A DNA stretch of 64,000 bases from Gammaproteobacteria bacterium (GTDB lineage Bacteria > Pseudomonadota > Gammaproteobacteria > Pseudomonadales > Pseudohongiellaceae). The first letter of the stretch is position 1. The number at the start of each line of letters is the position of its first letter. Position numbers and translations under genes: made by a program. The notes beneath the pieces were generated by a model, which was not told the DNA's origin, ran no database searches, and saw only the letters and a list, made by a program, of their open reading frames with translations. Of this stretch, positions 58,181 through 62,156 are shown one piece after another. The DNA lies in the NCBI GenBank assembly GCA_018661465.1, contig JABJIC010000018.1, positions 1 through 64,000 of the forward strand, written 5' to 3'.

Positions 58181-59515
58181 ATGACTACCCAGGACACTAA
58201 CTCGTATATCTATCTCTCAACAGAAGAGGCATATAGCTCAAGTGAATTGAATGAGCTATGCGAGAGAATCATTAGCAGCGGCGTGTTGGGGCGCTCCCGT
58301 CACTATGTGGAATTGTTAAGGTATTTGGTGAAGTGCTCAATTGAAGGATATTCACCAAGAGAGCTGGAGCTAGCTATCAATGGGTTGGGCAAGCCTGAAG
58401 ATTTCGATGTTTCTGCTGATTCCGCAGTGCGGGTCTATGTGCACCAGCTTCGTAAGAAGCTGGACAATTATTTTGAAAGCAATGAGGTTCAGAGTGACTG
58501 TCGCATTGTCATACCTAAAGGGCAGTACACTATTGCGGCGCTTAAAAAAGAAATCCCCTTGTCATCTGCCGTTGCAAACACAGGCTTGTTCAAGTCGAGG
58601 CTAACGAACTTGCTTTTAGTTGCGGTCGTGCTGCTGCTTGCGGCGAATATTACATACCTAACTACTGACAATGAGCAAACCTTAAATTTGGAAACTCAGC
58701 AAATATTGCAAAGCTCGGTATGGGGCACTGTTCTCACTGATGATAAACCCATACTGCTTGTTATGGGAGATTACTACATTTTCGGCGAGCTAAATTCCAA
58801 CGGCAATATCGCAAGAATGGTTCGAGAGTTTGATGTCAATTCCCGAAGAGATCTTGAAGACCTGCATTTCAGTGACAACGAGAATGATAGTGATAGTGAG
58901 AGAAGTGAAAACTATCTCGATTTAGACCTTTCCTATATGCCGGAAGGGAGCGCTTTTGCATTAGCTAGTATTGCTCCTGTTCTTTACGGGAGCGGGAAGG
59001 GGGTTGGCATTACCATGATGTCCGACCTGACCACCTCTGATATCCGAAGTAATCATATCGTTTATATAGGTTATCTAAGTGCCCTGGAAAAGCTGAGTGA
59101 TATGACATTCGCCGCATCCAGTTTGCGGATAGGCCGTAGCTACGATGAGCTATTTAATACCAAAACTTTGGAGTACTACACAAGTGATGCAGGCCTGCCA
59201 GAAGAGGGTGAAGCCTTTCGCGACTATGGCATGTTTGCCACTTTCCCTGCAGGCAGCGAGACTCAGATAGTAATGATTGCTGGTATGCGAGATGCAGGTC
59301 TAATGCATACCGCACAAGCAGTAGTTAATCCAGATATGCTGCTAGAACTGGATCAGGCTATTGGTTCTGAAGGTGGTGGAAATGATCCCAGCTTCGAAGC
59401 TTTGTTTGAAGTGTTCGGTGTCGATCGTCTGAATTTCGACGCAAATCTCATTTACACCTCTGTTCTGGATAGCAGTAAAATCTGGAATTCTTCAGCTGTT
59501 GAAAGTCTGCAGTAA
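58181..59515 (+). CDS. Membrane-anchored winged-helix regulator with uncharacterised C-terminal domain
   Basis: N-terminal FDVSADSAVRVYVHQLRKKLDNYFESN...RIVIPKGQYTI, then TM LTNLLLVAVVLLLAANITYL, then about 270 aa C-terminal region. Confidence 0.7.
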   Translation: MTTQDTNSYIYLSTEEAYSSSELNELCERIISSGVLGRSRHYVELLRYLVKCSIEGYSPRELELAINGLGKPEDFDVSADSAVRVYVHQLRKKLDNYFESNEVQSDCRIVIPKGQYTIAALKKEIPLSSAVANTGLFKSRLTNLLLVAVVLLLAANITYLTTDNEQTLNLETQQILQSSVWGTVLTDDKPILLVMGDYYIFGELNSNGNIARMVREFDVNSRRDLEDLHFSDNENDSDSERSENYLDLDLSYMPEGSAFALASIAPVLYGSGKGVGITMMSDLTTSDIRSNHIVYIGYLSALEKLSDMTFAASSLRIGRSYDELFNTKTLEYYTSDAGLPEEGEAFRDYGMFATFPAGSETQIVMIAGMRDAGLMHTAQAVVNPDMLLELDQAIGSEGGGNDPSFEALFEVFGVDRLNFDANLIYTSVLDSSKIWNSSAVESLQ

Positions 59516-59676: not shown

Positions 59677-59720
59677 TTGACATAAACTACATTTGTAGCC
59701 ATCATAACTACAAATGTAGT
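59677..59720 (+). promoter_or_regulatory. Promoter with two BlaI/MecI-type operators
   Basis: TTGACA (59677-59682), CTACATTTGTAG (59687-59698), ACTACAAATGTAGT (59707-59720). Confidence 0.8.
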
Positions 59721-59814: not shown

Positions 59815-61755
59815 ATGAGGTTGGAACCAATGTTTGGGTTTTTCGAACTACTTAATATAGATGGAAGCTTCTTACTGCTGAATGTGCTTATTCAGCTAAG
59901 TTTGATGGCTAGCTTTGCCATTCTCTTCGCCAAGAAATTTAAGAACAGCGCAGCGGCGCGTTATGCAATCTTATACTCCGCCATGTTATCCCTGCCGATT
60001 TTACTTGGGTTTTCCTTGCTGTTTCAGGCTGGAGAGCAGTCGCTGGTCTATTTGCCAATCGAAGATTCCTCATTCCAAACATCGACTTCAAATTCGGCAA
60101 CTGGCTTGGAGTTTGCAGCTGCAGCTAAAGAGTCGAGTGCATCAAATGGTGAATATTGGAGCACGGAACCAGAAGGTACCATTCACTTCGGGCAGGCACT
60201 ACAGGCTGTGTATACAGAATACTTGCCGGTTAATCTTCCTTCCGTTGCGACCCTACTTGCAGATTCCGAGTCGAAGGCGTTCCTTCTCTGGCAATGGTTT
60301 GTTGGCCTGTCCTTCAGTCTACAGATTTCTCTTTTATGGTTCGCGGGCTTCTGTCTCCAAAGTCTTGGCCTGGTACGGAGCTTTCAAAAGCTTAAACAGC
60401 TTGCTGCTCGGTCAAGAGATTTGCCCGCTGGTGAACAAGAGAAAGTTGATCAGTGCCTTGAAGGTATTTCATTGAATTACAAACAAGTTGGAATTGCACT
60501 GTCACGTGAGGTAAGTAGCCCTGTAGTGATGGGGTATATAAGTTCCACTCTGTTACTGCCTGAAGGGTTTGTGTCGCAGCTAGGTCATACCGAGCTTCGC
60601 GCGGTGTTGCTTCATGAGATGGCCCACGTTGAGCGATATGATGCGCTTAAGAATCTGATTCAAAAGTTTCTTTTGGCTCTATTCTGGTTTCATCCTCTAG
60701 TGCATATCATGGACAGAATGATTTCAATTTCCCGGGAAGAAATTTGCGACAACTATGTGTTGTCCCAACAACAAGCTCTGGAATATGGGGAAGTCTTGCT
60801 CAGCGTGAGCGCTATGCAAGCTAACCTGGCAATGTCACCAAACAATAATTTGAGAACCGCTCAGGTTCCGTTAGCAATGGGGATGATAGGAAGTGAATGG
60901 AAACTTGAACAACGAATCATTGAGCTCTTGAGTGAGCGAAGGGAAAAGACTATGAAACTTAGCAAACCTAGAAATCATTTAGTACAGGGCACATTAGTAT
61001 CTCTTTCAATACTTTTGGCCGCCTGTCAGGTTGGTGCGGCAGAAAATGTAAATAGCGCAGCGCTTACAGCACAGGATAGGGAATTGGCTGAACAGCAAGA
61101 GGCGTTGGAAATGAATGCCCTTGCTCTTGAGTCAGCTGCTGAAATAATGGAAGCGGATGCTAGGCGTATGGAAGCTGACGTCGAACGCATGCATGCTGAC
61201 ATTCAACGCACGGAGATAGAAATTGCTCGAATCAATGATGAAGCTGCAATAAATGCAGACATAGATATTCGTGCTCTACGCATGGGTGTAGAAGCGCAGC
61301 GCATTGACATAGAAGCCAGAGAAATGGTGAGAGAGCTCCGAGAGCACTCAGTTGAACTTGCTATTGACCTGGAAGATGTTCGGGCTCAAGTAGAGCAAGA
61401 GTTGGAAGATGCGGATATCGGCGGTTCAATTCGCGAATCAATGGATGAGCTTCGTTCCAATCTTGCTGAGCTCGATGAAGAGACTGTGGTTGAGGGTATC
61501 GACAGCGAACAGATAAACCTAATCACCAGACAAGCACTGCAGACCGCATTACGCAGCCTTGAGGCTATCGATGTCGAGGCGCTTGAGTTGAGCATCAGAA
61601 AATCACTGGAGATAGAGTTAGATAGTCTGGAAATTCTGGAATTGGATATCAATATTGATATCGATCCTGAGATTGATGCTATAGATTTTTCTGCTGATCA
61701 AGTTAGACAGTTTGAGATAGAAAGATTGAACGCAAATAGCACACTAACTATTTAA
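59815..61755 (+). CDS. BlaR1/MecR1-like M56 family metallopeptidase with coiled-coil C-terminal domain
   Basis: AVLLHEMAHVERYDALKNLIQKFLLALFWFHPLVHIMDRMISISREEICDNYVLS. Confidence 0.88.
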   Translation: MRLEPMFGFFELLNIDGSFLLLNVLIQLSLMASFAILFAKKFKNSAAARYAILYSAMLSLPILLGFSLLFQAGEQSLVYLPIEDSSFQTSTSNSATGLEFAAAAKESSASNGEYWSTEPEGTIHFGQALQAVYTEYLPVNLPSVATLLADSESKAFLLWQWFVGLSFSLQISLLWFAGFCLQSLGLVRSFQKLKQLAARSRDLPAGEQEKVDQCLEGISLNYKQVGIALSREVSSPVVMGYISSTLLLPEGFVSQLGHTELRAVLLHEMAHVERYDALKNLIQKFLLALFWFHPLVHIMDRMISISREEICDNYVLSQQQALEYGEVLLSVSAMQANLAMSPNNNLRTAQVPLAMGMIGSEWKLEQRIIELLSERREKTMKLSKPRNHLVQGTLVSLSILLAACQVGAAENVNSAALTAQDRELAEQQEALEMNALALESAAEIMEADARRMEADVERMHADIQRTEIEIARINDEAAINADIDIRALRMGVEAQRIDIEAREMVRELREHSVELAIDLEDVRAQVEQELEDADIGGSIRESMDELRSNLAELDEETVVEGIDSEQINLITRQALQTALRSLEAIDVEALELSIRKSLEIELDSLEILELDINIDIDPEIDAIDFSADQVRQFEIERLNANSTLTI

Positions 61756-61769
61756 GGAGCGTAAAAGCA

Positions 61770-62156
61770 GTGGTCATTGCAAACAAAACACCCCTCTCTC
61801 GCGGTGAAAGAGAAATCATGGAGATAATCTGGGATCAGGGAGAGGTCGGGGTGCTCGAAGTAACCGAGATATTGAATAAGCAAAGGCCTATTGCGAGGAA
61901 TACGGTGCGCACATTGATGGAGCGCATAAGAGAAAAAGGCTGGTTAGTCTATCGCGCGGTTGGACGTAGTTATTTATATGAGGCTACTGTTCCGAGAGAA
62001 GAGAGCCTCGGTGAGAGAGTGGTAGATATGGTTGATAAAGCCTGCGGTGGAGATCCAGAGAAGCTTATGATGGCGCTTTTGGATTATCGCGGTCTCAGTA
62101 CTGAGGAAAGTAAACGTATTCGGAAAATTCTCGATGAGGCAGGCAAAAAGTCATAG
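61770..62156 (+). CDS. BlaI/MecI/CopY family transcriptional repressor
   Basis: LSRGEREIMEIIWDQGEVGVLEVTEILNKQRPIARNTVRTLMERIREKGWLVYRAVGRSYLYEA. Confidence 0.93.
   Translation: MVIANKTPLSRGEREIMEIIWDQGEVGVLEVTEILNKQRPIARNTVRTLMERIREKGWLVYRAVGRSYLYEATVPREESLGERVVDMVDKACGGDPEKLMMALLDYRGLSTEESKRIRKILDEAGKKS

Follow-up and report, generated by a model that had tools for sequence, protein, structure and literature searches.

The M56 receptor proteases BlaR1, of Staphylococcus aureus and Bacillus licheniformis, and MecR1 join a zinc protease carrying HExxH and ExxxD motifs to a C-terminal penicillin-binding sensor, and act with a partner BlaI repressor and palindromic operators, BlaI and MecI binding TACA/TGTA sites (PMC7253601). 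Work on BlaR1 has dealt with it almost exclusively as a sensor of antibiotics. In the S. aureus protein the signal peptidase SpsB cuts at Gly331, between the last transmembrane helix and the sensor, and shedding is documented (PMC9834060); a signal-peptidase junction is thus already known for this fold. The Mycobacterium tuberculosis BlaR1 homologue has a similar zinc metalloprotease domain and no equivalent sensor domain (PMC9834060). A second point of reference is the Ton2-type system TtpC-ExbB-ExbD-TonB-TtpD, in which iron transport by TonB2 in Vibrio requires the tetratricopeptide (TPR) protein TtpD2 (PMC6957404). Pfam already records M56 domains fused to other domains, and the locus described here is a variant of this known kind.

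The window, by which we mean the whole stretch of 64,000 nucleotides that was analysed, comes from a marine-type gammaproteobacterium of the Pseudohongiellaceae. The operon and its control region contain the following features.

59677-59705, + strand: sigma-70-type promoter, TTGACA-17-CATCAT, 10 of 12 consensus matches, with operator 1 in its spacer
59687-59698, no strand: candidate BlaI-type operator 1, CTACATTTGTAG, an exact palindrome
59708-59719, no strand: candidate BlaI-type operator 2, CTACAAATGTAG, an exact palindrome just downstream of the -10 hexamer
59830-61755, + strand: M56 receptor protease gene, from PF05569 and ortholog alignment
60613-60627, + strand: HEMAH zinc-binding/catalytic motif
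60736-60750, + strand: EEICD, with the zinc-ligand Glu and the Asp of the gluzincin ExxxD motif, invariant in aligned orthologs
60952-61023, + strand: signal-peptide-like last membrane segment, MKLSKPRNHLVQGTLVSLSILLAA, opening with an in-frame ATG
61015-61026, + strand: lipobox LAAC with Cys404, a lipobox being found in 15 of 16 orthologs
61024-61752, + strand: acidic C-terminus of 243 residues, predicted all-helical, a helix of about 106 residues being followed by a helical bundle
61770-62156, + strand: BlaI-family repressor, PF03965
62330-62359, + strand: terminator-like hairpin 3' of the operon, 12-bp stem with seven G-C pairs and a T tract

The first-pass annotation had recognised an M56 protease (HEMAH, EExCDxYVL) and a BlaI repressor, with the protease gene first, and all of this is borne out. 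The frame 59815-61755 matches PF05569 over residues 170-338 (E=3e-33, cut-off passed), and the second gene begins 14 nt beyond the end of the first and matches PF03965, the Penicillinase_R family, at E=9e-29 (100.6 bits against a cut-off of 22.6). The true start of the M56 gene is probably the Met codon at 59830, since in the alignment orthologs begin near there; the earlier start at 59815 adds five residues. Counted from 59815, HEMAH occupies residues 267-271 and EEICDNYVL begins at residue 308 (position 60736), giving the HExxH...E zinc motif of peptidase family M56. In an alignment of eight orthologs H262, E263, H266 and D271 (numbered from 59830) are invariant, and the same holds for the Glu ligand and its accompanying Asp, so that both His residues, the Glu and the Asp residues are all retained. 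The best PDB sequence-profile match is S. aureus BlaR1 (8exs, 2.7e-20), and Foldseek also returns S. aureus BlaR1 (8exp, 9e-9), for the protease part only. A model of the full-length protein, in which the C-terminus is also helical, reaches a mean pLDDT of only 57.7 and is thus of low confidence.

The repressor is 68-84% identical to those that adjoin M56 orthologs. Assignment as the copper repressor CopY was rejected, the TIGR02698 score (74.5 bits) falling below its cut-off of 121.95 and the protein having one Cys and no CxC motifs. Two perfect palindromes, CTACANNTGTAG, flank the -10 region on both sides, so that an adjacent BlaI gene and TACA/TGTA operators are both present, as in the BlaR1/MecR1 systems. 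Because the 10-base core alone predicts binding poorly, we used the pair as the search pattern. It occurs once in the whole genome, on the M56-blaI operon. Across the family 137 genomes were scanned and 10 carry the pair; a reversed control pattern was never found in the same genome set. The arrangement of TTGACA and operators is the same in five syntenic relatives (L032, L033, L035, L039 and L190). The uniqueness of the pair in the genome, together with the preservation of this layout upstream of five relatives, makes it likely that the M56-blaI operon represses itself. BlaR1/MecR1 systems control a gene for a beta-lactamase or a penicillin-binding protein, whereas here the exact pair lies only on its own operon; the search for other BlaI targets in the genome gave no second exact pair, single or diverged sites falling outside the pattern. 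Exact single sites occur at two further places, inside ordinary open reading frames or next to them, with no visible link to envelope sensing. Terminator-like hairpins such as that at the end of the operon are, as a class, not clearly above shuffle expectation.

Three further observations concern BlaI-type control. The source genome has a second BlaI-family gene (L121, 4763-5092), without an M56 neighbour. In one relative, G136, the operator pair precedes two near-identical 304-residue TPR proteins (L187, 4443-5419; L188, 4675-5651) with transposase-like genes nearby; these proteins possibly represent a BlaI output, and are the only hint at one. In another, G124, the syntenic upstream genes and the operator pair stand at a contig end (L190, 1-52), with the M56 gene cut off.

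The protein departs from BlaR1 and MecR1 in what follows its protease domain: it has no C-terminal penicillin-binding sensor, a helical stalk stands in that place, and the junction resembles a type II (lipobox) rather than a type I signal. Searches of Pfam and NCBIfam, PDB sequence profiles and Foldseek revealed no penicillin-binding protein (PBP) or beta-lactamase domain anywhere in the M56 protein, and as a positive control the same Pfam search does pick up the beta-lactamase domain of L189, an M56 protein from a related genome. The initial reading had seen no SxxK/penicillin-binding domain; the domain is indeed absent, although the protein contains a single SxxK tetrad (SIRK, residue 593). 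A motif scan found no SxN or KTG in the protein, and a divergent PBP sensor was accordingly rejected, for lack of any domain, profile or fold match and of the SxxK/SxN/KTG set.

The same annotation described this region as about 240 residues of heptad-like, acidic coiled coil. The part that starts with Cys404 is indeed 243 residues long and strongly acidic (63 D/E against 21 K/R, net -42), and an AlphaFold2 (AF2) model of the C-terminus alone, built with its one close homolog, consists of a 106-residue helix and shorter helices with no strand and no PBP fold (mean pLDDT 74). The heptads fared less well. A period of 3.52 over residues 434-533 is matched by 134 of 2000 shuffles, which is suggestive and not significant at the 5% level, and the periodicity test found none in the Ile/Asp/Glu-rich tail; a helical C-terminus is thus well supported, a coiled coil less so. 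At the alpha-helical rise of 0.15 nm per residue, the modelled helix of some 106 residues would measure approximately 16 nm, enough to cross a large part of a typical periplasm. A frameshifted or non-coding C-terminus is ruled out by codon statistics, which give 0.39 bits per codon in frame and negative values in the five other frames.

What, then, does this switch report? We consider it moderately probable that the locus is an autoregulated, BlaR1/BlaI-type operon of a Pseudohongiella-like clade that encodes an envelope-sensing receptor protease. BlaI, bound to both palindromes across the promoter, would repress the operon. By analogy with BlaR1, the M56 protease would be anchored in the inner membrane and present its active site to the cytoplasm, its last membrane segment being a lipoprotein-signal-like helix that ends in the lipobox Cys404 and its acidic stalk, the long helix and the bundle, reaching into the periplasm. 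A change in the envelope could then act through the stalk and the last membrane segment to activate the protease, which, if it behaves as BlaR1 does, would cleave BlaI and derepress the operon. What the switch monitors is probably the cell envelope and not antibiotics, because the penicillin sensor is absent, the stalk follows a lipoprotein-type signal, and close relatives carry at the same position parts of the Ton machinery, which serves nutrient uptake at the outer membrane. The paired operators, the lipobox and the Ton link are points that go beyond the first-pass annotation.

The junction between protease and stalk bears most directly on how such a receptor might work. The last membrane segment reads MKLSKPRNHLVQGTLVSLSILLAAC, with the basic n-region, hydrophobic h-region and lipobox Cys of a lipoprotein signal, placed internally (residues 380-404) rather than at the N-terminus. 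Its Ala-Cys pair is invariant in the eight aligned orthologs, and the Cys lies exactly 40 residues after the Glu of an EQRI motif in all 14 orthologs measured, a spacing held despite an overall identity of roughly 30-40%. Counted automatically over a narrower interval, the lipobox appears in 13 of 16 orthologs, as against 4 of 56 M56 proteins outside this group; the N-terminal parts of these orthologs, 3878 residues in all, contain no strict lipobox. Lipidation or LspA cleavage at Cys404 is predicted from sequence. We know of no type II signal-peptidase junction in a BlaR1-type protein, so that one here would be new; nor do we know of a lipobox or helical stalk in the M. tuberculosis homologue. 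In the open PMC literature we found no paper on M56-TonB or M56 lipobox proteins.

If LspA did cut at Cys404, it would sever the sensor from the protease, an outcome that a simple receptor model leaves unexplained. It is possible, and we advance it tentatively, that the sensor is meant to be cleaved: Lgt would lipidate Cys404 and LspA would cut before it, so that one gene supplies both a protease of the inner membrane and a stalk that is a lipoprotein in its own right, and a failure of maturation or export would leave the receptor uncut and the protease on, as a sensor of lipoprotein biogenesis or of the envelope. The conservation of the lipobox at a fixed spacing is in keeping with this, as are the lipobox-like Cys residues of the M56 paralogs L079, L089, L103, L112 and L117 and, in S. 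aureus BlaR1, the SpsB cut at Gly331 and the documented sensor shedding (PMC9834060). On the other hand, the ortholog L047 has no such Cys, and the lipobox is internal, unlike that of ordinary lipoproteins. Production of a separate lipoprotein from the internal ATG (60952) ahead of the segment was rejected for the gene studied here, its match to a ribosome site being weak (p=0.41), which also counts against cleavable sensing. Four orthologs (L040, L042, L043 and L044) do have a strong AAGGAG-GTG start there, within the M56 frame and immediately ahead of the lipobox segment, possibly marking a nested lipoprotein gene; these form one related group, and the internal start is not independent evidence among them. 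In E. coli, Gln at position +2 favours the outer membrane, and the predicted lipoprotein stalk would have Gln there. Lipidation and an LspA cut at the last membrane segment might free the sensor, leaving it on the membrane surface or in the outer membrane. The more specific proposal, a receptor protease with a cleavable internal lipoprotein sensor that reads lipoprotein maturation or export, or Ton and outer-membrane engagement in the TPR-TonB relatives, and not a small ligand, is in our judgement rather doubtful. Outer-membrane lipoprotein sensors of the NlpE/RcsF type offer a possible analogy, with lipoprotein maturation or export as the signal; this is only a lead, as the proteins and the downstream pathway differ from M56-BlaI.

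Where did the stalk come from? The first-pass annotation supposed that a coil had replaced the penicillin sensor, and this is the part of it that is not supported. The gene order DUF2239, Trans_reg-like, M56, BlaI, AP2-domain gene, glycosyltransferase is kept in L032, L033, L035, L039 and L045, not all of these genes being present in each genome piece compared, and the M56-BlaI pairing is conserved among the relatives, whose named records are metagenome-assembled Gammaproteobacteria, one of them labelled Pseudohongiella. The upstream neighbour (58181-59515) encodes a conserved protein, with identities of 59-63% in the clade, that matches Trans_reg_C weakly and has a TM-like segment. The studied M56 gene shares its locus, operators, BlaI and lipobox with an M56-TPR-TonB_C subfamily of this clade. 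Most orthologs have TtpD-like TPR and TonB_C following the coil or LysM. After the M56 domain, L036, L040, L044 and L050 carry TPR and TonB_C, L052 and L053 TPR only, and L049, the same gene as L035 and the only ortholog with LysM, carries LysM, TPR and TonB_C; the studied gene and L048 (the L032 gene, from genome G092) have neither TPR nor TonB_C. The source genome holds a TtpC-ExbB-ExbD-TonB-TPR operon. With the TtpD-like protein of this operon the TPR part of the orthologs shares 42-49% identity, and with its TonB their TonB_C domains mostly share 60-71% (34-50% in two). Stand-alone copies of such Ton-operon proteins are nearly universal in the family. The likeness to the Ton2-type system lies in this C-terminal TPR and TonB_C; the Ton2 components are transport proteins with no protease, and the studied protein lacks both domains. 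With coil or LysM, TtpD-like TPR and TonB_C at the same position in relatives, loss from a Ton-type sensor is a simpler account than replacement of a penicillin sensor. What stands of the original proposal of a receptor protease responding to something other than beta-lactams is an operon without a beta-lactam sensor and, probably, an envelope signal.

The tail itself is homologous to the C-terminus of the G092 ortholog (E~1e-8, 31% over 232 residues); a search with the coil alone found no other homolog in the family, all other matches having E>0.01, and neither remnants of TPR or TonB_C nor homology to the TtpC coil were found in it. The studied gene and G092 group together at 89/91 in a tree that is not fully resolved, this grouping not being fully supported, and nest among carriers of TPR and TonB_C. 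Given this grouping, the nesting and the homologous tail, the simplest history would be that the sensor, descended from a Ton-type sensor of coil, TtpD-like TPR and TonB_C, lost its Ton parts while keeping the homologous coil. At the syntenic locus of L035 the M56 protein is 39% identical, as against 84% for BlaI and 92% for the AP2-domain protein, so that the repressor changes much more slowly than the sensor-protease. This divergence, the absence of TPR and TonB_C from both genes and an operator pair confined to its own operon could also be read as decay, the loss of the Ton parts having left a non-sensing stalk and a self-repressing remnant. We think this unlikely, since the catalytic residues are intact, the frame is open with a strong coding signal, the tail is retained in a second species, and the promoter and operators are perfectly kept. 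A genuine beta-lactam receptor whose sensor is hidden or comes from a partner protein, for which there is the precedent suggested for the M. tuberculosis homologue (PMC9834060) and the beta-lactamase domain of some M56 relatives, is very improbable in view of the missing PBP motif set and fold, the lack of any other gene in the genome with the operator pair, and the Ton and LysM domains of the orthologs.

The envelope-sensing operon that we favour, with its same-position relatives, suggests that M56-BlaI is a general chassis for envelope signalling, in which repressor, operators and neighbours are near-fixed while the periplasmic sensor is swapped among Ton parts, LysM and coil. The conserved lipobox at the sensor junction, matching the place where S. 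aureus BlaR1 is cut, leads to the testable idea that sensors are shed or turned off there.

Elsewhere in the family, M56 genes (L079-L118), many of them adjoining a BlaI gene, have varied C-termini, including TonB_C-like and ankyrin domains by Pfam and, by eye, VWA-like, secretin-like and HEAT-like ones. One M56 protein (L189, 4145-6592) combines M56, beta-lactamase (PF00144, 4e-39) and TonB_C in a single chain, and ahead of its gene stand an operator pair and a gene of BlaI-like type.
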